Of a stretch of 64,000 nucleotides of DNA, positions 17,305 through 35,325 are shown piece after piece. Within the stretch, counting starts at the first letter, position 1; each line of letters starts with the position of its first letter. The position numbers were made by a program, and so were the translations under genes. The DNA is from Thermodesulfovibrio yellowstonii DSM 11347 (lineage in GTDB: Bacteria; Nitrospirota; Thermodesulfovibrionia; Thermodesulfovibrionales; Thermodesulfovibrionaceae): the NCBI RefSeq assembly GCF_000020985.1, contig NC_011296.1, forward strand, positions 1,912,001 through 1,976,000, in the 5' to 3' direction. The notes below the pieces were generated by a model. It was not told where the DNA came from, did not search any database, and saw only the letters and a program-made list of their open reading frames with translations.

Positions 17305-20300
17305 CTTTATATCCCACATGGTTCAGATGAAACAGGATTTAATCTTTTCAAAAATCTGTCTAACCCACTGCTTTATATCCCACATGGTTCAGATGAAACA
17401 AGTGTATCCTCATCTTTTCACAATCTGCCTTTATCACTTTATATCCCACATGGTTCAGATGAAACTTCCATCTTCTGTTTGAACCTCTTCCATCTGATAA
17501 CTTTTATATCCCACATGGTTCAGATGAAACTAAGAACGGTGCTGACTTCACTTACTTCATCTGTCACCTTTATATCCCACATGGTTCAGATGAAACAGAA
17601 TACAGAGTAATCAATTGCAGATTTCTCCAGACTTTATATCCCACATGGTTCAGATGAAACTTCAGATTCATCAAAGAAAATTTTTGGTGTCATTGCCTTT
17701 ATATCCCACATGGTTCAGATGAAACATTGAGAAGAAAAGCAGAAAGAGAATTATTTTTAGACTTTATATCCCACATGGTTCAGATGAAACTGGATATTTT
17801 TCGCTGGCGTAGGTAATGGCAAGTGCACTTTATATCCCACATGGTTCAGATGAAACGAAAAATACTTTTGGAATTAGCAACTAAATATAACTCTTTATAT
17901 CCCACATGGTTCAGATGAAACTGAGCGGATATAACTTCATTGAGCTTGCGTGGGGAAGCTTTATATCCCACATGGTTCAGATGAAACTGCTTCTTGCTTA
18001 GCTTTCCTTTCTAATTCTAAATCGTCTTTATATCCCACATGGTTCAGATGAAACTATTCTACCCCAAAGATATTCCATTGCGAGGTCTTGCTTTATATCC
18101 CACATGGTTCAGATGAAACAAAATATATTTTATAAGTTTATTCCTACCTCCAGTAAACTTTATATCCCACATGGTTCAGATGAAACTTAACCGTGCAATA
18201 AACATACTTGTGAACTATACAGTCTTTATATCCCACATGGTTCAGATGAAACCATACCTTTCGTGAGGTGGTAGATGCTAAGGATTATTGCTTTATATCC
18301 CACATGGTTCAGATGAAACTCGCAATCCCTCCTGCTATGGTAGTCCCTCCTCTGACTTTATATCCCACATGGTTCAGATGAAACTTTTTTAGCTCTTGTT
18401 TGCTCTGTTTTCTTGCTAAGCTTTATATCCCACATGGTTCAGATGAAACACAATATAAATAAGGCAGTTTCTCTTCAGGAAAAAACTTTATATCCCACAT
18501 GGTTCAGATGAAACACGCATTAATGTTGCTGAACTTGCAAGGGTAATTGGACTTTATATCCCACATGGTTCAGATGAAACTTGAGGATGTCCGTTGGCAT
18601 GACCTGCGGCGAACATTCTTTATATCCCACATGGTTCAGATGAAACGGGGATTGTGGATTACAGATATGACAGATTCAATCCTTTATATCCCACATGGTT
18701 CAGATGAAACAGGGACTAAATCCTCTGGCGGGGTTGTTAAGAAAAACTTTATATCCCACATGGTTCAGATGAAACACAATTAACAAAGAGTACCCCGCCG
18801 AACCGAAAACGTCTTTATATCCCACATGGTTCAGATGAAACAGGAAGAAATAGTAAAGATACTGCAGCATACTCCCGGTCTTTATATCCCACATGGTTCA
18901 GATGAAACGGTTCTAAAAACAGACAGAAAATTATAGGGCTTATACTTTATATCCCACATGGTTCAGATGAAACTTTTTATAATTTATCAGAACATTACTG
19001 CAGGGTATACTTTATATCCCACATGGTTCAGATGAAACATTGAAGGAGTAATAAAAAGATTCTCTGCATCAGGCCTTTATATCCCACATGGTTCAGATGA
19101 AACTTTACATAAGTGAATCAAGGGTAATTATTAAAACTGTCTTTATATCCCACATGGTTCAGATGAAACTAGAAAGAAATCAGAAAAAGAAGCTCTATAC
19201 ATACTTTCTTTATATCCCACATGGTTCAGATGAAACGATGAAGAAAAAATTAGACATAGGACAGCTTGACCTGCTTTATATCCCACATGGTTCAGATGAA
19301 ACGAGGGGAATGTGTTTAAGGGAGCAATTGAAAATACCTGCCTTTATATCCCACATGGTTCAGATGAAACCTTGAGGCTGCCTGTCAGAGGCTTGGCTTG
19401 TCTATGCAAGCTTTATATCCCACATGGTTCAGATGAAACTTTAATAAATAATGCTAATATTTCATTAAAAGCAAACTTTATATCCCACATGGTTCAGATG
19501 AAACGATGTTAAGAGTAAAAACTCCTATAATTAATCCTGCCTTTATATCCCACATGGTTCAGATGAAACTTCTCTTTGAAGTTCCTATAGAGAGAATTAA
19601 ATTAACTTTATATCCCACATGGTTCAGATGAAACGCATTATATAGAGAAATTCAGTACCACCGCCTTTGGCTTTATATCCCACATGGTTCAGATGAAACG
19701 GAGTTGATGGATTTATATAATTATCAGGACTCGACTTTATATCCCACATGGTTCAGATGAAACAGCATGTATTTGCAAGAAGTGAACAAGAGCTTGAACC
19801 TTTATATCCCACATGGTTCAGATGAAACGAATTTGAAGTTGAAATTTCTAATGATGATTTCTTTACTTTATATCCCACATGGTTCAGATGAAACGGCAAC
19901 CACTGCTGTAAAAGACAAAAAAGTAATCTCTGCTTTATATCCCACATGGTTCAGATGAAACTACTGCTTCTATTGTTATGTAAGCAATTTCTCCAACCTT
20001 TATATCCCACATGGTTCAGATGAAACGGCAACCACTGCTGTAAAAGACAAAAAAGTAATCTCTGCTTTATATCCCACATGGTTCAGATGAAACTACTGCT
20101 TCTATTGTTATGTAAGCAATTTCTCCAACCTTTATATCCCACATGGTTCAGATGAAACATACTTGTTTTACAGAACACTAAAAAACACAACCGAACTTTA
20201 TATCCCACATGGTTCAGATGAAACAACATGTCAGTTTTCTCATTGGCTTGAGTATCTTCTACTTTATATCCCACATGGTTCAGATGAAACAGATGTGCTG

Positions 20301-23300
20301 ATGAGCGAGAAAGAGTTTTCAGAGAAGACTTTATATCCCACATGGTTCAGATGAAACGAAGCTAAGAAGGTTGAAGAAAAACCTGCTCAGAAGACTTTAT
20401 ATCCCACATGGTTCAGATGAAACTGTAAAGTAAACTACGTAACGTAGTTTACTTAAAACCTTTATATCCCACATGGTTCAGATGAAACGTTGTTGCCTTG
20501 CCTTCGTGCTTTTCAATTTGCACTTCTTTATATCCCACATGGTTCAGATGAAACCAACTGTAACTGTTAAAGATGGTGAAACCACTGCTATTGTCTTTAT
20601 ATCCCACATGGTTCAGATGAAACTCTTTTTTAGAATGAATTCTATAATTCATCATTATATTCTTTATATCCCACATGGTTCAGATGAAACTTAACATCTC
20701 CCTTGTCAATCGCAGATACAGGCAACTTTATATCCCACATGGTTCAGATGAAACATGGAAATTTATATGTAATTTTGAAAGTAGTTGCTCTTTATATCCC
20801 ACATGGTTCAGATGAAACCGTTGATTGCATGTTCTTAAGCACTATCTGCATTGCTTTATATCCCACATGGTTCAGATGAAACATCTATCCCTTTTTCCGC
20901 ACAGATGCGGGTTCTTGCTTTATATCCCACATGGTTCAGATGAAACATGCCATAAGGGCTGTGGCAATAGTAGATGCACCAATCTTTATATCCCACATGG
21001 TTCAGATGAAACTTATACTTATTTTTGGGTTCTTGAAAAACAATCAAGCTTTATATCCCACATGGTTCAGATGAAACATATTTGCCAGAAAAGTTAAAGC
21101 AATACCTTATCTCACTTTATATCCCACATGGTTCAGATGAAACTATTACTCTCAACCCAATCACGAATTTGTTCTGTTGTCTTTATATCCCACATGGTTC
21201 AGATGAAACTGCTTGAAGAACTGAAAGAACCGGAACCATACTGCACTTTATATCCCACATGGTTCAGATGAAACTGAACCCGTAATTATTCAAGATGCCG
21301 CAATATTCTTTCTTTATATCCCACATGGTTCAGATGAAACTGCTTGTTGACCATAACAGAAACTTTTTAGCTCCACACTTTATATCCCACATGGTTCAGA
21401 TGAAACGAGGGTGAGGACATTTGTATTATTTGATAGAATAAGTCTTTATATCCCACATGGTTCAGATGAAACTTTTTGCATCTATATATGCTGTTTATAT
21501 AATTTTTAAACTTTATATCCCACATGGTTCAGATGAAACATTCTCATACTCAAAAAGAAAAGCCCTTTCTGGCTCACCATCTCTTTATATCCCACATGGT
21601 TCAGATGAAACAATTTTATACTTTGCAAATTCTGTTTTTTATGTTTGCTTTATATCCCACATGGTTCAGATGAAACGAATTCATGAAAAAATGCCAGAAA
21701 GCTAAATCTTTGATCTTTATATCCCACATGGTTCAGATGAAACGAGTCCATACTGTGTTGGGCAGTATAAAGAGCTCCGCTTTATATCCCACATGGTTCA
21801 GATGAAACGCCATTTTTTTGTTTAGATTTCAACTTCAAAGTCTTCCTTTATATCCCACATGGTTCAGATGAAACTAATATTGACAAACTTGAAAATGCAA
21901 GATGTATGATGCCTTTATATCCCACATGGTTCAGATGAAACTATGATGCTGGACCTGATAAAACATTTAGAAAGCACTTTATATCCCACATGGTTCAGAT
22001 GAAACGTTCAACAAACTCTTTGTGTTTGATTTTATTGACAACTTTATATCCCACATGGTTCAGATGAAACGAGACCAGATACAAGAGCATTAGGAATAGC
22101 ATTAAGACTTTATATCCCACATGGTTCAGATGAAACGAAAACCACGTTTTGACAATAGAAGGTCTTACAAAACTTTATATCCCACATGGTTCAGATGAAA
22201 CAAATCATCATAACCTTCTGAAGCACTTCTGGAACTGTCTTTATATCCCACATGGTTCAGATGAAACAAGTTTCTTAACTTAGTATAAAAATTATCACAA
22301 ATAAATTCCTTTATATCCCACATGGTTCAGATGAAACCCGTTGGTAGTGGAGACAGGCTTTGTTGGAAGTTTGACTTTATATCCCACATGGTTCAGATGA
22401 AACATCACATATGCAAAAAGATACGCATTGTCTTTAGCTCTCTTTATATCCCACATGGTTCAGATGAAACGATGCAAAAGGATGTTACAGAAAATATGTT
22501 AAAAAACTTTATATCCCACATGGTTCAGATGAAACCAACGGGACAGAATGTTACTGTTGATGAAGTTGAGATCTTTATATCCCACATGGTTCAGATGAAA
22601 CATTTCAAGTTCTAAATCCTTAAAATACCTTGTATCTATCTTTATATCCCACATGGTTCAGATGAAACACAATAAAAGATCCAAGTTGCTGTTGCGTTAA
22701 AACACTTTATATCCCACATGGTTCAGATGAAACATAGTCTTTGCCAAAAAGTGTGGCTTTACCAATATCTTTATATCCCACATGGTTCAGATGAAACGTT
22801 ATAAAGCATATTGTTATGTCTCTGAACTTCTTTCTTTATATCCCACATGGTTCAGATGAAACTCACATATGCAAAAAGATACGCATTGTCTTTAGCTCTC
22901 TTTATATCCCACATGGTTCAGATGAAACAGTGAACTTTGTTAGACAAATCTAACTTAGTGAGTGACTTTATATCCCACATGGTTCAGATGAAACGTAGAC
23001 CCATCGCCACATATGTCTCCAATTCAACAATACTTTATATCCCACATGGTTCAGATGAAACTGAAATTCCTAAAGACAAAATCATCTATAACAAAGACTT
23101 TATATCCCACATGGTTCAGATGAAACGTATGTATCGGCTTTATTGCAATCAATATCTTACACTTTATATCCCACATGGTTCAGATGAAACGTTGCAAGAG
23201 CTTTTATCCCAACCAGAGCTAATCTCTTTATATCCCACATGGTTCAGATGAAACTGAATGCTTGAGATATTTAGTTTATAACCGAACAAGACTTTATATC

Positions 23301-25222
23301 CCACATGGTTCAGATGAAACTGTTGCGTTCAAAATCTCTACTTCTTTCTCTAAGCGTCTTTATATCCCACATGGTTCAGATGAAACCCTGAGTTAGTTGA
23401 GGCGGGGAGAGGGGTCCTTCCTACTTTATATCCCACATGGTTCAGATGAAACTTAAACGAATGGAATGAGACAATGATAAAGCGATACCTTTATATCCCA
23501 CATGGTTCAGATGAAACTGTGTATGCCAGAAGAAATTGTTTCGGCATTTTCTTCTTTATATCCCACATGGTTCAGATGAAACTATCAGCAGTTCGTCAAG
23601 TTTAATGTTTTTAACAGACTTTATATCCCACATGGTTCAGATGAAACAATATCAAATTTATTACTCAACCAGCAAGGACAATAATAACCTTTATATCCCA
23701 CATGGTTCAGATGAAACACTGTACTGACACAACAGCGGAAATAACAAACTACAACTTTATATCCCACATGGTTCAGATGAAACCTCTTCTATGTTTTTGT
23801 CTTTGACATTAACCCCTTCCTTTATATCCCACATGGTTCAGATGAAACTTTGTTTTTTGATAAGTTACTATTTTCGTTGTTATCTTTATATCCCACATGG
23901 TTCAGATGAAACTGCATCTGCAGGAATGCTTACAAGAGATATTTCAAGCTTTATATCCCACATGGTTCAGATGAAACTAACTTTCCCTGAAAGTGCTGAC
24001 ATTTGAACCCATACCTTTATATCCCACATGGTTCAGATGAAACTTATACTGCTCTACTGCATCGTAGGCAAGTCTAAATACTTTATATCCCACATGGTTC
24101 AGATGAAACTCCCATCCTGCCCTGGCAAATTCTCTATAACATAAACCTTTATATCCCACATGGTTCAGATGAAACTCCTGCAAAAATCAATCTTCTTAAA
24201 ATTACTGCTTTCTTTATATCCCACATGGTTCAGATGAAACCTTGTTTTTACATCGTGAACCTTCCCCTTGAAACACTTTATATCCCACATGGTTCAGATG
24301 AAACTGGTGCAGGTGGCTCTGGTGGAGCTGCGGGCTCTGCCTTTATATCCCACATGGTTCAGATGAAACTCGTCCGCCCACTCGCTTACCGTCTGCTTTG
24401 GTCTCTTTATATCCCACATGGTTCAGATGAAACAACTTCATCCCATGCAAGCCCTCCAGGATGGAATCTCTTTATATCCCACATGGTTCAGATGAAACTA
24501 AAAGCTATTCTGACATCTTTGGCAGTTTTTTCTGAACTTTATATCCCACATGGTTCAGATGAAACAACTTCAACTGGGCACATATTCCAGATGCAGACTT
24601 ACTTTATATCCCACATGGTTCAGATGAAACAAAATTTCCAAACTGCCAAAAACCTTTATTTTTTCACTTTATATCCCACATGGTTCAGATGAAACAGACA
24701 GGCTTTGTTGGAAGTTTGACGGGGAGAGTATTCTTTATATCCCACATGGTTCAGATGAAACGACCTTGATAGAAAAATCACTATTACCACAAGACCTCCT
24801 TTATATCCCACATGGTTCAGATGAAACTTTGCTCCCTTTTTCGCACAAATTGGGCAACTGGTAGGTACTTTATATCCCACATGGTTCAGATGAAACTTGG
24901 CACACATATCAGATATTCACCATCTTTGATTGTCTTTATATCCCACATGGTTCAGATGAAACAAGCTGGATGCTTGACTTCACAGTCACTGAACCATCCT
25001 TTATATCCCACATGGTTCAGATGAAACCTGGTGGATTATCACGCTTCTGGTTGGCAATTTAGTCCTTTATATCCCACATGGTTCAGATGAAACATGAAAT
25101 CCTCAGTAGGAACAAAGATGCCCCCACACCTTTATATCCCACATGGTTCAGATGAAACGATGCTGGACCTGCAAACATTGTTGAGGCTATTGGCTTTATA
25201 TCCCACATGGTTCAGATGAAAC
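17305..25222 (-). CRISPR. Type I-B CRISPR array, 121 full repeats and 120 spacers
   Basis: A 29-bp repeat recurs every 65-67 bases; spacers are mostly 35-40 bp. By hand count there are 121 full copies, all identical except the copy at 17502, whose first plus-strand base is T instead of C. In minus-strand (crRNA) orientation the repeat starts GTTTCATCTGAACC and ends GTGGGATATAAAG. That closely resembles the Haloferax I-B repeat and would give an 8-nt handle AUAUAAAG after a CC..GG stem. Duplicate spacers: a two-unit tandem duplication at 19866-20129, and a non-adjacent pair at 22404 and 22863. The cas operon lies to the right on the same strand. Confidence 0.98.
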
Positions 25223-25440
25223 CCAGCTTGTCAATGAACAATGAATTGCTCCCAAAATTCTTTATATTTCTAAATTTTACAAAAAAATTATCGCATCTGA
25301 GAACCCCCTCAAAAAACAAGTTATTTGCATCAGACCTTTAATCAATTTTTAAAAAATGTCCAAAATCACTTTTCAAATTATTGATAATATTATCTCTCGC
25401 CTAACCTCCGACTTAAAACAGGTTTGATGCAGACTTAATA
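25223..25440 (-). promoter_or_regulatory. Probable CRISPR leader
   Basis: About 220 AT-rich bases between the array and the repeat element before cas2, on the side expected for a minus-strand leader. They contain A/T runs, a TTTTGAGGGGG stretch (minus strand) and an inverted repeat (25326-25336 and 25421-25431, TGCATCAGACC against GGTTTGATGCA, 10 of 11 pairs). A sequence whose first eight bases match the repeat end lies at 25260-25281. No promoter could be assigned with confidence. Confidence 0.6.
25260..25281 (-). repeat. Degenerate repeat-like end beside the array
   Basis: Plus-strand CTTTATAT matches the first eight bases of the repeat exactly and sits 37 bases (one spacer length) beyond the last full repeat; the remaining bases match only at chance level for AT-rich DNA. 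Either a decayed repeat or a leader motif that mimics the repeat's handle end. Confidence 0.45.
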
Positions 25441-25610
25441 ATAGAAAGAGATTCCTCACTTCGTTCGGAATGACAGAAAAAATGACGGAATGACAAAAGA
25501 TAACGGAATGACAAAAAGATGACAGACAAATAATAAGAATGACAAAGAGAAAATCGGAATAATATAGGTAATTCCAATTCGGAATACCATATGTAAATTC
25601 CACTCATAAA
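25440..25610. repeat. Dispersed repeat element with degenerate tandem tail
   Basis: GAGATTCCTCACTTCGTTCGG..AATGACAGAAAA followed by irregular tandem copies of GGAATGACAAAA (25482-25560). Same family as 5241-5350; the tandem tail is like that seen in flgI. The short frames that can be translated here are not genes. Confidence 0.7.
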
Positions 25611-25714
25611 TAAAAAAATGGTTCGGCATAAGCAATGTGCTCATTCTAAATGTGAGAATTAATAAAAATAAATAGAGATTTCCGCTTAGTTCAAAATGTT
25701 TACTCACAATTTAT

Positions 25715-25981
25715 CTATAAAATATTACCCGTTATTTCTTTTTCGATGCCTAATACGGTTTTTCTGTAATTTAGCCTGTTTTCAAGGCTGTAGAAGTATA
25801 CTGAATCTACTTCTTTGTCTATGACCTTTTCCAGTTCAAGCTTACATTTTAAAAGCTTTCCCTCTGTTATCTCTCCCTCAAATACAGAGTTCTGCACCCA
25901 CATGAAATACTTCTTAAGTATTTTGCGAACCTTGTTTACTCTCTCTTCAGCAATGTCATATGTGACGATTAAATAAGGCAT
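25715..25981 (-). CDS. cas2: CRISPR-associated endoribonuclease-fold protein Cas2
   Basis: 88 residues with the Cas2 ferredoxin-like start MPYLIVTYDIAEERVNKVRKILKKYF and the second strand WVQNSVFEGEI. Forms the integration complex with Cas1, bridging two Cas1 dimers during spacer acquisition. Last cas gene before the leader and array. It is separated from cas1 by 132 bases that hold a dispersed-repeat copy. Confidence 0.95.
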   Translation of the reverse strand: MPYLIVTYDIAEERVNKVRKILKKYFMWVQNSVFEGEITEGKLLKCKLELEKVIDKEVDSVYFYSLENRLNYRKTVLGIEKEITGNIL

Positions 25982-26113: not shown

Positions 26114-27091
26114 TCACCACCAAGCCTTAAAAGGAGCATACACTTCATCTCCAATGAAATGTTTTATGAGTTTGTAACATTCAATTCTGATTATCGTCCT
26201 GTAGGAGACATTTCTTTTAAGCTTCCTATGTTTTATTGTTGTGCTTAATTTCTGGTCAAACTCTCTGATAAATTTTTTTCTACCACTTTCGTTTAAATAA
26301 CAATAGTTAACATCTTCTTCAAAGTCATCCAGCTTTATCATGTTGTTGTTTATAAGTTTGAAAATGATTGCATCAGCTAAAAGAGGCTTAAAAATCTCGG
26401 CAATGTCAAGACTTAGAGAGTATCTTCTTTCGCTTGGTTCATGCAGGTAGCTCACTGTCGGATTAAGCTGGGTGTGATATATTTCATTAAGCACAGTGGT
26501 GTAAATCATGCTGTTTGCAAAAGAAATAAGAGCATTAATTGGATTCCTTGGAGGTCTTTTTTCTCTTTTTCCCATTGAGAAATCTGATTTTAAAAAGGTA
26601 TTAAATGCCTCGTAATAAAAATCCCTTGCTCTTCCTTCACATCCCATAAGCTCGCTTATCTTTGTTGTCTCAACTGCATTACTCAATTCTTTCTTGATTT
26701 TCTCCTGAAATTCATCAGTGTTTTTGTATTCTCTGAGATTCCTGACCATATGAAATATCGCACCCTCTACAAAGGAATAGGCAAGATAAAATCTTCGCTC
26801 AGGGTCAAGAAAATGCTCAACCTGTTTTACCACAATATGTCCTGAGACATTTCTTTCTCTTGGCATAAGGCTACCTGAGTAAAATCCGTAGTAGTTGTAA
26901 AAGTGAACAGTCTTTCCTTGTTGGCATATGAAATTAAGTAGCTTGGTATTTAGGTCAACTTCACCAAAAATATGTATTGTATCAACATCCTCAATAGGAA
27001 TGGCTTTCCTGTCTCCTTGTTCATTTTCTATGTATATTGTATTTTCCTTCCGCCTGATTCTTCCATTTGAGAATATGTAATAGTTTCTCAT
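26114..27091 (-). CDS. cas1: CRISPR-associated integrase Cas1
   Basis: 325 residues, the usual Cas1 length. N-terminal strand domain (YYIFSNGRIRRKENTIYI), then the helical catalytic domain with the expected acidic/His triad: Glu in MGCEGRARDFYYEAF, His in SYLHEPSERRYSLSL and the acidic position in LDIAEIFKPLLAD. Inserts new spacers at the leader end. It follows cas4 by three bases. Confidence 0.96.
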   Translation of the reverse strand: MRNYYIFSNGRIRRKENTIYIENEQGDRKAIPIEDVDTIHIFGEVDLNTKLLNFICQQGKTVHFYNYYGFYSGSLMPRERNVSGHIVVKQVEHFLDPERRFYLAYSFVEGAIFHMVRNLREYKNTDEFQEKIKKELSNAVETTKISELMGCEGRARDFYYEAFNTFLKSDFSMGKREKRPPRNPINALISFANSMIYTTVLNEIYHTQLNPTVSYLHEPSERRYSLSLDIAEIFKPLLADAIIFKLINNNMIKLDDFEEDVNYCYLNESGRKKFIREFDQKLSTTIKHRKLKRNVSYRTIIRIECYKLIKHFIGDEVYAPFKAWW

Positions 27092-27094
27092 CGT

Positions 27095-27616
27095 TCAACT
27101 CCAGCAAAACTCAAAATAAGCACACTTTGTGCAATAAGGTTTTTTCTTTAATTCAGGTGGTTTTTCCATGCTCACAATTTCCCTTACTCTAACTAAAGCC
27201 TCCTCAACCTCCCTCTCCGCTTCAGGTGTAAGAGTAATTTCCTCTCTTTTACGCATTTTTGGATAGTTTATGATACCCTTTTTTTCAATTCCAATCTGCT
27301 TTAGATAGTAAAGATAATACAAAAGTTGAATTCTATCTGCATGGGCAAGGCGATTACTGTATTTCACTTCTCTTATCTGGTCATCGCCTACGATATCAAT
27401 GTTTATCAGGTTATCAATGAGTAATTCCCGTTTTTCTTCTGCAGGATAGGAATACTCTGAAAGAAGCTTTCCCATAAGGACTTTATCAGATTTTGACTCC
27501 ATTTGAATTCCTCTGTCAAAAAACCAGAGCTTCCGCTCGCAGACATAGAGGTAGTTGACCTTTATCCCGTTTGTCCTGAGAGTCTGAAAGTCAAATTCCT
27601 GTCTTAATGTTTCCAT
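27095..27616 (-). CDS. cas4: CRISPR-associated exonuclease Cas4
   Basis: 173 residues. RecB-type nuclease core with REVKYSNRLAHADRIQLLYYL (motif III and the Q..Y helix), and a four-cysteine iron-sulfur cluster: one Cys early (YVCERKLWFF) and three at the end (YCTKCAYFEFCWS). Trims prespacers and selects the PAM during acquisition. Only three bases separate it from cas1. The gene upstream is a non-cas ATPase. Confidence 0.94.
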   Translation of the reverse strand: METLRQEFDFQTLRTNGIKVNYLYVCERKLWFFDRGIQMESKSDKVLMGKLLSEYSYPAEEKRELLIDNLINIDIVGDDQIREVKYSNRLAHADRIQLLYYLYYLKQIGIEKKGIINYPKMRKREEITLTPEAEREVEEALVRVREIVSMEKPPELKKKPYCTKCAYFEFCWS

Positions 27617-27622
27617 TTTAAA

Positions 27623-28834
27623 TTAAAAAAGTATACTAACTGGTAAAGCAAAAAACTTCTCTCCAAAAGGAAGAATCCTTTCTCCCATGTATAAAACATA
27701 TCCCGCTTTAAGATTACGGACGGCTTTATCTAAAGAAGCAATATATTTAAAGTCATCCCGCGTTACAGTTTTTGAAAATTTTACCTCAATGGCAATAATG
27801 CTTCTGCCCTGCTCAATAACAAAATCAATTTCCTGCCTGTCATGGGTTCTGTAAAAGAAAAGCTCAGCAGGTTTATCTGAATACTTTGTGGCCTTAAGAA
27901 TTTCAGAAAATACAAATGTCTCAAAAATTAAGCCTTTGTAGGGAGACTGCATGAGGTCTTCTTTTGTTGATACTCCAAGCAAATGAGATAATATGCCACT
28001 GTCTGTGAAAAATAGTTTCCCTGTCTTGATTATTCGTTTGCTTATGTTTCTGCTGTAAGGTGCTAAAATGTAAATTTGATAGACCATTTTCAATAAATTA
28101 AGATAGTTCTCAAGGGTTTTAATTTCTAATTGAGCATCACGAGCAATATCTGATTTATTAAGCAAATTGGCAGACCTTGGCGCAAGCAAATTAAACATTT
28201 TTATAAACTTATCAAGATTTCTCAACTCTCCCAAGTCTCTAACATCTCTTTCAATGTATGTCCGTATATATGAACTAAACCATAAATATCTTCCAGTTAC
28301 TGTGTCTATCTTTTGAATCTCGGGATATCCACCCTTGATGACCTGTTCAATAATTAAATCAGTCTCTATTAATGGTAAAGTGAAATCTTTAAAATTGGCA
28401 TTAAAGAGTATTTCAATCACATTTTCCGTCTTTTTAGAAATCTCCTTACAACTTAAAGGAAAAAGCTCAATAATTGCCATTCTTCCTGCAAGCGTGTCCG
28501 ATATGTCTTTAAATGCCAATATATTAGCAGAACCTGTTAACAGGTAACTCCCATTAATTCTGTTTTTATCTATGTCAAGCTTTATTGAATTTAAAAGTCT
28601 TGGCAATTTTTGTATTTCGTCAATGACAACAGGTTTTTTTAGATTACTGACGAAAAGCGGAGGGTCTGCTAAAGCGGATTCATACACGGTTGTATCATCA
28701 AGGGTTACATAGTTTTTAAACATAGACAGTGCAAGAGTTGATTTGCCAACCTGCCTTGCACCTGTAAGAAAAACAGCAGGAAAATACCTCATTGCAGTGG
28801 ATAGCTTTGATGAAATAATCCTATGAAAAAGCAT
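27623..28834 (-). CDS. AAA_14/DUF4143 family ATPase inserted in the cas operon
   Basis: 403 residues. N-terminal AAA domain with Walker A TGARQVGKSTLA (about residues 24-35), Walker B KPVVIDEIQKLP and sensor LLTGSANI; then the DUF4143 domain with a PD-(D/E)XK-like end (RQEIDFVIEQGRSIIAIEVKFSKTV). The family is common and mobile in bacteria and archaea, with no settled function; it is not a standard cas gene. It lies on the same strand between cas3 and cas4, preceded by its own 22-bp palindrome and a GGGAG site. Likely a later insertion, but a role in this defence locus cannot be excluded. Confidence 0.88.
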   Translation of the reverse strand: MLFHRIISSKLSTAMRYFPAVFLTGARQVGKSTLALSMFKNYVTLDDTTVYESALADPPLFVSNLKKPVVIDEIQKLPRLLNSIKLDIDKNRINGSYLLTGSANILAFKDISDTLAGRMAIIELFPLSCKEISKKTENVIEILFNANFKDFTLPLIETDLIIEQVIKGGYPEIQKIDTVTGRYLWFSSYIRTYIERDVRDLGELRNLDKFIKMFNLLAPRSANLLNKSDIARDAQLEIKTLENYLNLLKMVYQIYILAPYSRNISKRIIKTGKLFFTDSGILSHLLGVSTKEDLMQSPYKGLIFETFVFSEILKATKYSDKPAELFFYRTHDRQEIDFVIEQGRSIIAIEVKFSKTVTRDDFKYIASLDKAVRNLKAGYVLYMGERILPFGEKFFALPVSILF

Positions 28835-28908: not shown

Positions 28909-31095
28909 TTAGTCTATAAGTACTCCTTCTCCAGCTGTATCCTTTAATTGTAAACCTTTCTCATAAGAGTAGGTAACTTCGTTCATTATCATTATATTGT
29001 TTCTTTTGCAATATTCAGAATCAGGCACAGGGGTTAAATTTTTGAAATTTCCAAATATCTGAAGAGGAATTATAAAATCTTTTATCTTAGCTTTAGCCTT
29101 AATACGTTGCATTTTTTCTGTATCTTTATTGTCTATAAGTTCTATCAAATTCCTTATTTCCTTCTCATTTTCTTCATAAACAAGACGAGGAATAACGCAA
29201 TAATTGAAAGCTATGTTTCTAAAAAAGGCTTCAGCTTCGGTCTTTGATTGAGCCTTAAAACCTAATTCAAGCAATTCTTTATTTCGCTTGTATTTTTCAT
29301 AATATTTTGTCTTCTCAATATCTTTAAAAATTGTGAATATCGCATCTTGCTTATCTCTCTCATCCATGATTTTATTCTTGTAATTATTAAAAATTAGAGA
29401 ATAAGTTCTGTCAAGAAGTTCTTTATCATAAATCCTATTGTCTTCAGCTTTAAAAATGTGAATATTGGGCTTATTATCTGTATATTCTCTTTTTCTCCAG
29501 CATCTTCCAAATCTCTGTAAAAGACTATCTATGGGGGAGCATTCTGTAAACAATGCATCAAAATCTAAATCAAGGCTCGCTTCTACCACCTGAGTAGCTA
29601 TCCAGATTACAGGTGGATGTTTAGGGTTATTGACAGCCATTATTCCGTGGTCTCTGCTTTCTTTATTTTTTCTATCTTTCAGTATGTATCTTGAGTGTAG
29701 CAGTGATGGATTAAAATTTTTTAGCATATCATACATTTGCTGTGCTTTTTTTACAGTGTTACAGACAATCAGTATTTTTTTGCCTGATTTGAAGTTTTTA
29801 TCAATCATCTTCAATGACCGTTCGCTGTCAATTGGTTCATCATAAACGGTAATAAAATGTCGCTTATTTGGCAACAATACAGGCTCAGGAAATTCCACAT
29901 TCTGCAACTCCTTTAATTCTTCTTTAATAAAAGGTGGGAGTGTTGCTGTCATAATAAGAAATTTACTACCAAGCCTATGAACTTCCTTTAGAAAAACCAT
30001 TATTGCCGCAATAGAGTCTGGAGAAAAGCTCTGTATCTCATCAAGCACAATCTTTGAATAGGAAGCAGTAAGATATGTCATTTCAAATCCATTATATTTG
30101 AAAACTGATGTTACAAGTTGGTCAGCAGTTGCTACAGTCAGGGGAGTAGAAAGTTTTCTTGCAGTTTCAATTCTTTCAACATATCTTTCCTCTGTATCAT
30201 CATCCTCAATTATATTACTAATTTCACCATGTAATAGAGATACATTCTCACCGAATATATCTTTAAATCTTCTATACATTTCATTAACCGCAGTTCTAAT
30301 GCCCAAAAGATAAAATGCCTTTTGTCCATTTATCCAGTTCATTGAATATTCGGTTTTTCCCGTACCTGTGGAAGCTACAAGAACTACGCTCTTATCTGAT
30401 AGTCTTTTTGCCTCATTTTGAAAAGGTTTAAGATGCCATCCTTTTTTAGATAACCAATTATTGAAATCTTTTTCATAATTGCCTGAATAGTGACTTTCAG
30501 GCTCAATATTAGCAGAAGCAGTATAATCACATTTATGCAGTATGCCTTTAAGAAAAACAAGCAGTTCAAAATAATTCTTAAAATTTTTTTGTGAATCAAT
30601 TTTCTGTTTTATATCTTTAAATATGTCATAGTCAAAATTTAAAGAATGGTTTATCCCTAATAATCCTTTATTTTTTTCAAGATCATGACAAATAGTTTTC
30701 TCTAAGGCTTTCTTATCAAAAGGCTTTGTCCTTGTATGATGAAATGCGATGCAGTATTGAACAAGGTCAGCAAAATGGATGGTATCAGTACTCAAAGTAT
30801 GAAAATATCTTTTGTCTTCTCTTGAGAGGAAGGCTAAGGATAACCATTCATGAGGTATTTCATCAATATCTTTTAGTTCTGGTATTATTACTTTTTTAGA
30901 TAATCCAAGCTTATTCTGAAATTTATGATTTAACTTGCCAAGGTCATGATAATAAATAATTTTTTTGATTACTTCATCATATTTTTTGATTTTTTCTGGA
31001 TCAAGAAATGGTTTTATTCTCTCATAATTTTCAAATATTTTTTTGTTGTGTTCTTCAATAGTTTCAGGAGGATTTGATTTAGCAAATACAGGCAT
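28909..31095 (-). CDS. cas3: CRISPR-associated helicase-nuclease Cas3
   Basis: 728 residues. N-terminal HD nuclease domain (IIYYHDLGKLNHKFQNKLG near residue 50; CIAFHHTRTKPF later), then an SF2 helicase: Walker A STGTGKTEYSM, box II VLDEIQSF, box III MTATLPP, and box VI LQRFGRCWRK. Unwinds and degrades the DNA bound by Cascade. HD and helicase are in one polypeptide, as in most I-B systems. It abuts cas5 with two bases between. The cas genes after it are separated by the inserted ATPase. Confidence 0.95.
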   Translation of the reverse strand: MPVFAKSNPPETIEEHNKKIFENYERIKPFLDPEKIKKYDEVIKKIIYYHDLGKLNHKFQNKLGLSKKVIIPELKDIDEIPHEWLSLAFLSREDKRYFHTLSTDTIHFADLVQYCIAFHHTRTKPFDKKALEKTICHDLEKNKGLLGINHSLNFDYDIFKDIKQKIDSQKNFKNYFELLVFLKGILHKCDYTASANIEPESHYSGNYEKDFNNWLSKKGWHLKPFQNEAKRLSDKSVVLVASTGTGKTEYSMNWINGQKAFYLLGIRTAVNEMYRRFKDIFGENVSLLHGEISNIIEDDDTEERYVERIETARKLSTPLTVATADQLVTSVFKYNGFEMTYLTASYSKIVLDEIQSFSPDSIAAIMVFLKEVHRLGSKFLIMTATLPPFIKEELKELQNVEFPEPVLLPNKRHFITVYDEPIDSERSLKMIDKNFKSGKKILIVCNTVKKAQQMYDMLKNFNPSLLHSRYILKDRKNKESRDHGIMAVNNPKHPPVIWIATQVVEASLDLDFDALFTECSPIDSLLQRFGRCWRKREYTDNKPNIHIFKAEDNRIYDKELLDRTYSLIFNNYKNKIMDERDKQDAIFTIFKDIEKTKYYEKYKRNKELLELGFKAQSKTEAEAFFRNIAFNYCVIPRLVYEENEKEIRNLIELIDNKDTEKMQRIKAKAKIKDFIIPLQIFGNFKNLTPVPDSEYCKRNNIMIMNEVTYSYEKGLQLKDTAGEGVLID

Positions 31096-31097
31096 TT

Positions 31098-31817
31098 TTA
31101 TATTGACAAAAAACTTACTATATACCTATCACTGTCAACATTAATTTCTGAATATTGAATTTTATTGCCCTTTGCAATGTAGATTGCGTTAACATACCTA
31201 AAAATTCTTTTATCTGTGAATGAATTTACAGGCTCATAATAAAAAGGCAATCTATAACATGTCCCCTCCAATTGCTCTTTTTTACAAAGCTCAGGTGCAA
31301 GATATATATTGTATGGAAGCCTGTATTCATCACTGAATGATAAAATGTCAACAAGACTTGTATCTTCAAAATCCACTCTTGCAATATCTTCATTTCTGCC
31401 GAGAATAACAGTTTTCTGCTTTAATGCCTCAAGAAGTTTGTCATTCAACCCTTCATCATCAAAGGATATATGAAGAATAAGTTCCATATCAACTATTTCG
31501 TCAACAAACATTATGCCTTGGTTTAATACCCTTTGCCCGCCAGCATAAATCCGTGGGCGAGGGTCTATAAATTCCCTTTTTTTATCATCTCTGACTCTAT
31601 CAAATTTGTATACCTTCTGCATATTTGTTACTACAGAGGCATAGTTACCCTGTATGGATATTTTTAGATTGTGGTATTTGTTTAGGTTTAAAAGACTATG
31701 AGCCATACCTTTTACCATTGAAGGAGTTGGAAGTGGATAAGTCTGCACATAGCCATAGCTCAACTCCTTTCTGTAATTAACCATATTCTGATAGAGTTTG
31801 ATTCTAACAGCTTTCAT
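31098..31817 (-). CDS. cas5: Cascade subunit Cas5 (Cas5t type)
   Basis: 239 residues, RAMP fold. The N-terminus KAVRIKLYQNMVNYRKELSY..YPLPTPSMVKGMAHSLL is typical of the Cas5t group found with Cst1/Cst2. Caps the crRNA 5' handle in the effector complex. Four-base overlap with cas7. Confidence 0.9.
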   Translation of the reverse strand: MKAVRIKLYQNMVNYRKELSYGYVQTYPLPTPSMVKGMAHSLLNLNKYHNLKISIQGNYASVVTNMQKVYKFDRVRDDKKREFIDPRPRIYAGGQRVLNQGIMFVDEIVDMELILHISFDDEGLNDKLLEALKQKTVILGRNEDIARVDFEDTSLVDILSFSDEYRLPYNIYLAPELCKKEQLEGTCYRLPFYYEPVNSFTDKRIFRYVNAIYIAKGNKIQYSEINVDSDRYIVSFLSI

Positions 31818-32713
31818 TTCAAGCCATTATAAAAATTATCAATTTTTTCATTAAGTTTAGTGAAAAAATCTTCTATTGGAAACTTATCTTTAATGTCTAT
31901 GTCATCTATATTTGAAAATTCTCCATCAATATAACCTAACATACTCTGTTGTCCAACAGTATTTTCAAAGGTTTTAATAGCAAGAGTGCTGTTTATTAAT
32001 TTTTCATTAAGCATAATCTTATCTTTGGTAAAAGAAAGCTTTATTCTGTTGTAAAAGAATGGATTACCAACATCATATAATCCACCTATTACAAATAAAG
32101 GAGAAAGGTTTTCTCTTTTACCTCTTATGTCTCTGTTAAGTAGCTTAATAACATTCAACAGACATTTTACTCTATTTGATCTCTCTGTATTATCAAGAAC
32201 AATTTCATATATAGGATCAACACCTATCTCCTCAAGATTGCAGGTTAAAGTGTAACAATAATATGAACGATGAATTTCAGCCTGAAAAATGTCATTACCT
32301 ACATTGTTTGGAATTCTATCTGCAAGTCCTTTATTGGTTGCAAATTCAAGTTCATTATAGAATGGTTCAAGGCTTACAGCATCGGTGAGTCTCACTACAG
32401 CTTTTCTAATCTTGTTAGAAGTTGTAGTTTTCATATAACCAAAGAAATCTATCTCGGGAAAATCTTTGATAGTAGCATGTTCGGCAAATTGGATAACACC
32501 AGCTTGCCTATCAACATCAGTAAGTCTATAACCGCAAAGCTCATTAAGCATTCTCACAACGTCATATCTCAGCGCCTGCCTGCTTATGTAAGAATAGTTT
32601 TTCCCCTCAGTAGTAACTTTTTTTAGTGTAAGAATATTCCCAACACCCTCGCCATAGTTTAAATTTGATGCTTTAAAGATTACTGCCAGATGTAAATATT
32701 TTTGGGCTATCAT
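31814..32713 (-). CDS. cas7: Cascade backbone subunit Cas7 (Cst2/DevR type)
   Basis: 299 residues. N-terminal LAVIFKASNLNYGEGVGNILTLKK and SYISRQALRYDVVRML match the Cst2/DevR Cas7 family, which polymerises along the crRNA spacer. Lies between cas8 (two bases) and cas5 (overlap), so stoichiometric expression from one mRNA is likely. Confidence 0.9.
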   Translation of the reverse strand: MIAQKYLHLAVIFKASNLNYGEGVGNILTLKKVTTEGKNYSYISRQALRYDVVRMLNELCGYRLTDVDRQAGVIQFAEHATIKDFPEIDFFGYMKTTTSNKIRKAVVRLTDAVSLEPFYNELEFATNKGLADRIPNNVGNDIFQAEIHRSYYCYTLTCNLEEIGVDPIYEIVLDNTERSNRVKCLLNVIKLLNRDIRGKRENLSPLFVIGGLYDVGNPFFYNRIKLSFTKDKIMLNEKLINSTLAIKTFENTVGQQSMLGYIDGEFSNIDDIDIKDKFPIEDFFTKLNEKIDNFYNGLK

Positions 32714-32715
32714 AA

Positions 32716-34380
32716 TTACTCCTCCTCTATATCATTTGTTCCAGTATTATTCTCTATGCCACTTTTACTAATTAAACCACTAACAAATGAGTAACCAAAC
32801 TGCAAGAAATAATCATCATCAAGCATTTCATCCTTACCAAAACGATTTGGTTGATTATGAGACATTACTATCCTCAGATACTTGTCAAGAAATTTTTCTC
32901 TGTCACCTATTTTTAAGTCATTCAAAAAACCATAAACTAATCCGTTAATCTGATTTTCTTTACCCTTTTTTATAAGTTCATTGCGAAGGCTAAGTCCACT
33001 AAGGTAGCCTTTGTTAATTATTTTTTGACTTTTCTCCATGCTTTCACCTCTTACCCATTGGATATATTTAATTACAAAATTCATAACTTTATTCAAGTTA
33101 TATTTAGTTGAGTAATTATCAGTGTCTAAATAGTATGCAAAATATCTGTAGAGAGTTGAGTAATCAATCTGATAACTAATGGCAAGTTTCAAAAGTTCCT
33201 CTTCAATACTACAGTAATTTTTATTTAGGACATAATAACCTTTCGGAACACTTTCATTTTTAAACTGCAAATCAAGAAACATAGCTATATCAGGGCTAAT
33301 ATTGTAGTTGTAAATATTGTATCCTTTAGTCCCTTGACCTGCAAGAATGGGATTGTCAGCAATTTCAATAAAATTAATATTTTCTGAGATACGATTTATC
33401 TGTTTCTTTGTTATATAATCCACTATTTGCTTTATCATTACATAGAGAAGATTGCTGTTTTCTTCAATGTTGTCAATTAAAAGATTAAATGTTTTAACTA
33501 TTTCATAAAGTGTTTTTAAATTTGTGTTCTCATTGGGGAAATAAAAATAATTCAGATATTCTCCTTCGGCTATTTTTAAAACATAAGCAAAGGAGGCAAA
33601 AGCGCAACTGTAAATAATAGCACATAAAGGACATATTTGAAGTTTTGAAACCTTAAATCCCCATATCCAGTTTGAGTTATCTTTGTTGAATCCAATGATA
33701 TTAGATACAGCATTGTTAAATTCGTATTCTGCCTTTTTTTCTTGACAGGATGGACATAGTTCATTATTCTTTAATTTCTTTGAGTATTTCATAGCTTTTA
33801 TCCTGCTTACATATTCTGAAACATTTTCATGAGAACATACACCTTTCAATTTCTGATTGATAAAAATTTGTATTGACTCCTTGCCTTCAGGGGTTTTGTT
33901 TAGAATCTCAAAAATTTGATTTTTAGAGAGATTTTTTAACTTAGACTGAGCTTTTTCAAGATTGTCTATAAAATCTTCAGCGGACTTATACTCCCAAACC
34001 GGTATATTCAATAATTTCAAAAAATCCTTATATGGGGGTTTTTCAATCTCTTCAAGTTTTTTTCTTATCTGTTCAGGTTTGATTTTTGTCTTTTTTTCAG
34101 TTAAATCTTTTTGAGCTTTTTGTAAACGCTGAAGATAAGCATTAACATTAAAAAATTTCAAAAAAGCATATTTGCTAAATTTCTCCTCAAAACCTTCAAA
34201 AATTTCATCACTAAATTCAATATAATTCTCACCAATTGTTAGATATGGAATACTATCTAATTCCTTCCCATCTGTGATTATATTAAGAAATCCTACTATC
34301 CCAGCATTGAAATACCAATCTCTCATGTAGATTTTATGTTTAACTGTTGATGGATAGAGTTTTATACTATCATTCACCAT
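32716..34380 (-). CDS. cas8b: Cascade large subunit Cas8b1 (Cst1, CXXC-CXXC family)
   Basis: 554 residues. Two CxxC pairs (ELCPSCQEKKAEY near residue 205 and LQICPLCAIIY near 245) identify the Cst1 'CXXC-CXXC' group of type I-B large subunits, which recognise the PAM. The N-terminal part contains a Lys/Gln-rich helical region (QKAQKDLTEKKTKIKPEQIRKK). No separate Cas11 gene is present; in I-B systems it can be made from an internal start within cas8. The gap to cas6 upstream is 156 bases. Confidence 0.88.
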   Translation of the reverse strand: MVNDSIKLYPSTVKHKIYMRDWYFNAGIVGFLNIITDGKELDSIPYLTIGENYIEFSDEIFEGFEEKFSKYAFLKFFNVNAYLQRLQKAQKDLTEKKTKIKPEQIRKKLEEIEKPPYKDFLKLLNIPVWEYKSAEDFIDNLEKAQSKLKNLSKNQIFEILNKTPEGKESIQIFINQKLKGVCSHENVSEYVSRIKAMKYSKKLKNNELCPSCQEKKAEYEFNNAVSNIIGFNKDNSNWIWGFKVSKLQICPLCAIIYSCAFASFAYVLKIAEGEYLNYFYFPNENTNLKTLYEIVKTFNLLIDNIEENSNLLYVMIKQIVDYITKKQINRISENINFIEIADNPILAGQGTKGYNIYNYNISPDIAMFLDLQFKNESVPKGYYVLNKNYCSIEEELLKLAISYQIDYSTLYRYFAYYLDTDNYSTKYNLNKVMNFVIKYIQWVRGESMEKSQKIINKGYLSGLSLRNELIKKGKENQINGLVYGFLNDLKIGDREKFLDKYLRIVMSHNQPNRFGKDEMLDDDYFLQFGYSFVSGLISKSGIENNTGTNDIEEE

Positions 34381-34536: not shown

Positions 34537-35325
34537 TTAACACACCTCTACCATGCCAAAGCCCTGTCCTGTCCTTAAGCCAATCCCTATCTGATAAAGC
34601 AATCTTAAATCCTCAGGGTCTCCGCTCAGTCTGAAAGAGCCTTCAAAACAGGTTAGCGTCATGTAGGGTTTACCAGTCTTTTCTCTAAAGCCTTTCAATG
34701 TATGTTTAACCACCTGTTTTTTAAGACTCAAAGGCTCAAATTCAAGTGCTCTCTTCAGTCCGTATCCTCTTATGTCCTTGAAAATTCTATCATGTATTGC
34801 ATTAAACTCAATATTAAAGTCCTCCACATTATCAGAGGGCAAAATTGGTTTTCCATCTTTGGTTTCAATCAAAGCTGGACAGAGTGTTTTAAAAGTAACG
34901 CTATCATTTTCAATTTTTTTCTCATTAAGCATAAATATCCTTTTTAGCATGAATGTTAGCTCATCACTAAATTGAAAGGATTTATTCTCAAGAAGTCCAT
35001 TATAAAGATTAACCATAAACTCATAATCAGAAGAACTAACTATGAGAGATACATAGCCTGTGTCTAAAAAATAAAAAACCGTATCTTCTATCTCAAAATC
35101 TTTGTCTATGATTATTTTTTCTTTTTTAGTCTGTCTTGATGCAGGTATGGTTACACAGAAGCAAAATGGCTTTACCACTTTAGTTATTTCTTGGCTTTTA
35201 TCTGGATAAAGTTTTTCTTTATAAGCACTATCAGATTTTTCCAGAGAATCTTTTATCAGAGACATAAATCTGTTTCTATAAAGTATGGGAAGTTTGGGGG
35301 CATAAAAAATAACTTTAATTCTCAT
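34537..35325 (-). CDS. cas6: CRISPR endoribonuclease Cas6
   Basis: 262 residues. N-terminal RAMP strand MRIKVIFYAPKLPILYRNRFMSL and the C-terminal Gly-rich loop GIGLRTGQGFGMVEVC typical of Cas6. Cleaves the array transcript in the repeat to leave an 8-nt 5' handle. First gene of the cas operon, with GAGG nine bases before the ATG and a promoter at 35343-35371. Confidence 0.92.
   Translation of the reverse strand: MRIKVIFYAPKLPILYRNRFMSLIKDSLEKSDSAYKEKLYPDKSQEITKVVKPFCFCVTIPASRQTKKEKIIIDKDFEIEDTVFYFLDTGYVSLIVSSSDYEFMVNLYNGLLENKSFQFSDELTFMLKRIFMLNEKKIENDSVTFKTLCPALIETKDGKPILPSDNVEDFNIEFNAIHDRIFKDIRGYGLKRALEFEPLSLKKQVVKHTLKGFREKTGKPYMTLTCFEGSFRLSGDPEDLRLLYQIGIGLRTGQGFGMVEVC

Follow-up and report, generated by a model that had tools for sequence, protein, structure and literature searches.

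Overlapping spacers support a 5' CCN PAM for a type I-B CRISPR-Cas locus of Thermodesulfovibrio yellowstonii

The PAMs of several type I-B CRISPR-Cas systems have been described. Clostridioides difficile takes new spacers from CCN sites and interferes most strongly when CC is at positions -3 and -2, with TCN also working; its repeat ends in AAT (PMC8406132). The archaeal system of Pyrococcus furiosus combines a CCN PAM with a repeat ending in AAG (PMC13199841 Table 1), and in the thermophile Thermotoga maritima the type I-B1 system has a broader PAM, YYD, defined with purified proteins, and a repeat ending in AAC (PMC13199841). A catalogue of PAMs built from mapped spacers includes CCN, CCA and CCT among its type I-B entries (PMC8482600).

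We analysed a 64,000-nucleotide stretch of the Thermodesulfovibrio yellowstonii DSM 11347 genome (NC_011296.1, positions 1,912,001 to 1,976,000), referred to here as the window; the genome is a single contig of 2,003,803 bases. The window locus resembles that of P. furiosus in both its CCN PAM and its AAG repeat end, although by published listing the P. furiosus Cas8b is Cas8b2 whereas that of the window matches the NCBIfam Cas8b1/Cst1 model. It shares acquisition from CCN sites with C. difficile but not the final base of the repeat, and its CCG, CCA and CCT flanks fit the YYD motif of T. maritima, albeit with a different repeat end and a narrower motif. The window also follows the catalogue's rule pairing A at repeat positions -2 and -3 with a PAM that has C or T, although that catalogue uses mapped protospacers and its main table does not include Thermodesulfovibrio (PMC8482600). 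CCN is an already established type I-B PAM, and the window system is one more case.

The cas genes run on the minus strand from 35325 down to 25715 in the order cas6, cas8b, cas7, cas5, cas3, an ATPase gene, cas4, cas1 and cas2. Above-cut-off matches were obtained for cas6 (34537..35325; TIGR01877), cas7 (31814..32713; Cst2/DevR, TIGR02585), cas3 (28909..31095; TIGR01587), cas4 (27095..27616; TIGR00372), cas1 (26114..27091; the HMARI/type I-B model TIGR03641) and cas2 (25715..25981; TIGR01573). The cas8b gene (32716..34380) encodes a CXXC-CXXC protein of the Cas8b1/Cst1 family, scoring 77.5 bits with TIGR01908 (cut-off 19.4). The cas5 gene (31098..31817), listed as Cas5t, exceeds the cut-off of the general Cas5 model TIGR02593 and scores 79.3 with the Cas5t model, below its cut-off of 96.7. 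As judged by these family models, the locus is a type I-B CRISPR-Cas system (Cas8b1/Cst1). The gene between cas3 and cas4 (27623-28834, minus strand) encodes an AAA_14/DUF4143 ATPase; a copy with 68% identity lies at the same place in another genome of the same order, G029 (L180:2841-4031), but a search of the cas loci of G028, G089 and G090 yielded no copy.

The CRISPR array occupies 17305..25222 on the minus strand and contains 121 repeats of 29 bases, reading GTTTCATCTGAACCATGTGGGATATAAAG in the minus sense, and 120 spacers mostly of 35-38 bases. The leader region is on its cas2 side (25223..25714, minus strand; the interval is drawn as far as cas2). The leader end, ...TTCATTGACAAGCTGG, lies directly against the first repeat and has a form common to relatives, the junction reading TTGACAAGCTGG followed by GTTTCATC; in same-repeat arrays of other genomes TTTGACAACTGG or a similar leader end lies directly before RTTTCATCTGAACC. 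Because the corresponding leader end in the window is found at 25223, on the cas2 side, the window array is read on the minus strand, the orientation that the first-pass annotation had proposed. The segment 25223-25260 was considered as one further spacer with a degenerate repeat and was rejected, comparison with relatives identifying it as the end of the leader. Recombination within the array has left two repeat-spacer units duplicated in tandem at 19866-20129 (132 bases, 100% identical). Spacer 73 (20424-20459) is a near-perfect palindrome, AAGTAAACTACGTTACGTAGTTTACTT; a palindromic spacer also occurs in the G029 array, where it was taken up repeatedly with shifts of one or two bases.

Two of the window spacers, both on the minus strand and numbered from the leader, overlap with an offset: spacer 44 (22338..22374) and spacer 8 (24696..24732). 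On the plus strand they read CCGTTGGTAGTGG-AGACAGGCTTTGTTGGAAGTTTGA and AGACAGGCTTTGTTGGAAGTTTGA-CGGGGAGAGTATT, respectively. The array parse gives 24 identical bases of 24, the same orientation and an offset of 13, exactly the overlap first noticed, and the union of the two spacers is 50 bases long (AATACTCTCCCCGTCAAACTTCCAACAAAGCCTGTCTCCACTACCAACGG). In the minus sense spacer 8 begins with AATACTCTCCCCG and continues with the 24 bases that open spacer 44; the first 13 bases of spacer 8 are therefore the 5' flank of the spacer 44 protospacer and record the CCG (24720..24722, minus strand) beside it. This flank ends in ...CTCCCCG, with CCG at -3 to -1, as had been claimed. With about 7,000 spacer pairs, a probability of 4^-24 and the possible offsets, a 24-base overlap is expected by chance at the order of 1e-10 or less, which excludes a chance origin, and simple duplication of a repeat-spacer unit is excluded because the spacer boundaries differ. 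The overlap thus supports the suggestion that both spacers came from a common or near-identical target. It is the only offset overlap among the 120 spacers of the window array, where CC is found at 3.2% of spacer positions, and the CCG flank taken alone could be due to chance, this case having been chosen after it was seen.

We did not find the source of spacers 8 and 44 in the phages, plasmids, viral_contigs or congeners searched. Neither the exact 24-base overlap nor a degenerate translated pattern of it gave any match in viral_contigs, and there was likewise no match to degenerate patterns representing the G029 hot spot or spacers 6, 36/43 and 66. Apart from a CRISPR array on a Calditerrivibrio plasmid, the whole array compared with phages and plasmids at loose E-values yielded chance-level matches only. 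This plasmid, pCALNI01 of Calditerrivibrio nitroreducens (L127), carries a small array whose repeat is nearly identical, and no cas gene is annotated in the part of the plasmid examined. No spacer in the arrays of congeners overlapped with one of the window array. A match to the overlap with three mismatches in congener G005 falls within leuS and stops at the 24 bases, and was treated as chance. A Mu-type transposase from congener G004, used as a query, recovered only distant viral contigs, none of which was convincingly matched by a spacer.

The homologous array of G029 is rich in overlapping spacers. The Cas proteins of this genome are 67-84% identical to those of the window, with the same gene order, and its repeat differs only in the first base. 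A flank was read for each G029 spacer whose 5' end falls inside another spacer; the better overlap was taken when two sources disagreed, and flanks of one or two bases were left unscored. CC was found at -3 and -2 in seven of 12 such flanks (spacers 128, 28, 3, which is identical to 88, 38, 54, 6 and 8); the others are spacers 27 (TGT), 19 (CTG), 35 (ACG), 26 (GTA) and 91 (TCA or TTA), of which spacer 26 has a weak flank, its target being internally repeated, and is nonetheless counted as a negative. Together with window spacer 44 this amounts to CC in 8/13 against a background of ~3.7% (p = 4e-9), a count that pools exact and diverged overlaps; exact overlaps only give 4/5 (p = 9e-6). Scored position by position, C is over-represented at -2 (12/16) and -3 (9/14), and the 3' side shows no motif from +1 to +6.

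Repeated captures are informative about the side on which the PAM lies. Window spacers 36 (22863..22899) and 43 (22404..22441), both on the minus strand, represent one protospacer captured twice, with an identical minus-sense 5' end and a 3' end that is one base longer in spacer 43. Several repeated captures in G029 are fixed at the 5' end in the same way, while some slip by one or two bases there. With the 5' end mostly fixed, the PAM is placed on the 5' side.

The first-pass annotation had also proposed that flanks be compared through database matches, and the resulting set is small because almost none of the window spacers has a match in the collections searched. Spacer 40 (22602..22639, minus strand) has a 34/38 match, flanked by CCT, in congener G006, within a gene resembling those for restriction-modification methyltransferases. 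Spacer 38 (22734..22768, minus strand) matches chemoreceptor genes of six congeners at 28-32 of 35 positions, the flank being CCT in four and CAT in two. The orthologue in the window's own genome (G000:C1:989484-991229) matches at 28/35, with seven mismatches and a CTT flank, and so offers neither a full match to this spacer nor a CC; this suggests capture of sister-species chromosomal DNA or of a mobile copy. Spacer 91 of the window (19237..19273, minus strand) matches a Mu-like transposable phage contig of G004 (L080) at 31/37, with an AAA flank and a diverged PAM-proximal end.

Five G029 spacers match one large gene on a G026 contig, all on one strand, with flanks CCC, CCT, CCT, CCA and CTG. 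This contig also carries traC and traU, and is thus an F-type conjugative element (contigs and loci L227, L228 and L198). G029 spacer 77 matches elements dispersed in several genomes, mostly with CCA at the boundary or one base from it; the target, GCCTTCGCTCCTCCAAGCTTG, is repeat-like and recurs across several genomes of this order (L168, L169, L171-L174). One spacer of another genome (L137) has a CAG flank. Altogether CC is present at -3 and -2 in 7/10 located protospacers or close homologues (p = 1e-8), two of them from the window (spacers 40 and 38) and five from G029, of which four lie in the one conjugative-element gene; with five protospacers in a single gene, the counts are not fully independent.

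CC at -3 and -2 with no accompanying 3' motif was thus found mostly on the homologous system of G029, from which most of the CCN figures come. The window itself contributes three CC flanks, namely one exact overlap and two diverged homologues, next to the AAA of its spacer 91. The first-pass proposal of a CCN-type PAM, as in type I-B, is well supported by both the 8/13 overlap flanks and the 7/10 protospacers. We put at roughly 90% the probability that this is a type I-B (Cas8b1/Cst1) locus that takes spacers beside a 5' CCN PAM on the minus (crRNA-sense) strand, and that spacers 44 and 8 were acquired separately.

A possible refinement, which we consider somewhat less probable than its opposite, is that the working PAM is broader than CCN, for instance YCN or YYD, and that CCN is the preferred or acquisition-stage subset. 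Such breadth would accommodate the TCA or TTA flank of G029 spacer 91 and the CTG of G029 spacers 19 and 47, and there are precedents in C. difficile, where CCN serves for acquisition and YCN for interference (PMC8406132), and in T. maritima, where type I-B accepts YYD (PMC13199841). However, CC is strongly dominant. The 5/13 overlap flanks and 3/10 protospacers that lack it concern mostly targets that are diverged or repetitive, and there the observed flank is possibly not that of the true source, albeit G029 spacer 91 rests on exact overlaps. We see very little room for the view that the spacer 44 flank is not genuine, with the 44/8 overlap produced by rearrangement within the array or by two unrelated targets sharing 24 bases. 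The recombinational duplication at 19866-20129 does show that rearrangements happen in this array, but recombination between repeats keeps spacer boundaries intact, whereas both ends of spacers 44 and 8 differ by 13 bases; similar offset overlaps are moreover frequent in G029, with the same CC flank.

The first-pass annotation had hinted that the G closing the repeat could be derived from the PAM, an arrangement known from type I-E; this reading is rejected as highly improbable. It drew on the G at -1 of the spacer 44 flank, the same base as in the repeat. Such an origin calls for a constant -1 base equal to the repeat end, but -1 is G, A, T or C across the flanks (CCG, CCA, CCT, CCC), whereas G closes 120 of the 121 repeats. 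In relatives whose adaptation proteins are 75-93% identical, the repeats end in T or C. In the survey of mapped spacers, matches at -1 are described as common only in I-C and I-E (PMC8482600).

By analogy with known type I-B systems, Cas1, Cas2 and Cas4 would select a CC-flanked end (CCN) during adaptation, and Cas8b would read the CC on the target during interference. The repeat ends in AAG at the matching positions, so that CC as against AA at -3 and -2 can separate target from own array; the array would be spared by its AA. Spacers 44 and 8, which are 36 array positions apart, are separate captures, taken where the protospacers overlap in a single foreign element or in closely related ones.

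The window repeat recurs in Thermodesulfobacterium, Caldimicrobium, Omnitrophota and other Nitrospirota (L082, L086, L132, L135, L140, L149). At these same-repeat loci Cas1, Cas2 and Cas4 often share 65-93% identity with those of the window, and the adjoining cas3, cas5 and cas7 products are sometimes only 28-49% identical. Protein comparison therefore suggests an adaptation cassette common to different effector modules. More speculatively, and in our estimation unlikely as a whole, the cas4-cas1-cas2-repeat-leader end may be a portable CCN-selecting unit that crosses phyla and pairs with varied effector modules, with some spacers, such as spacer 38, derived from sister-species chromosomal genes and not from viruses.

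The PAM class itself was already known. Here a large type I-B array from a thermophile has its orientation, leader and PAM fixed without a known virus, which allows searches with its spacers to use the correct strand and flank. The endogenous type I-B system could serve for editing. Overlapping spacers in a long array can thus reveal the PAM of that array, which is useful where viruses are unsampled.
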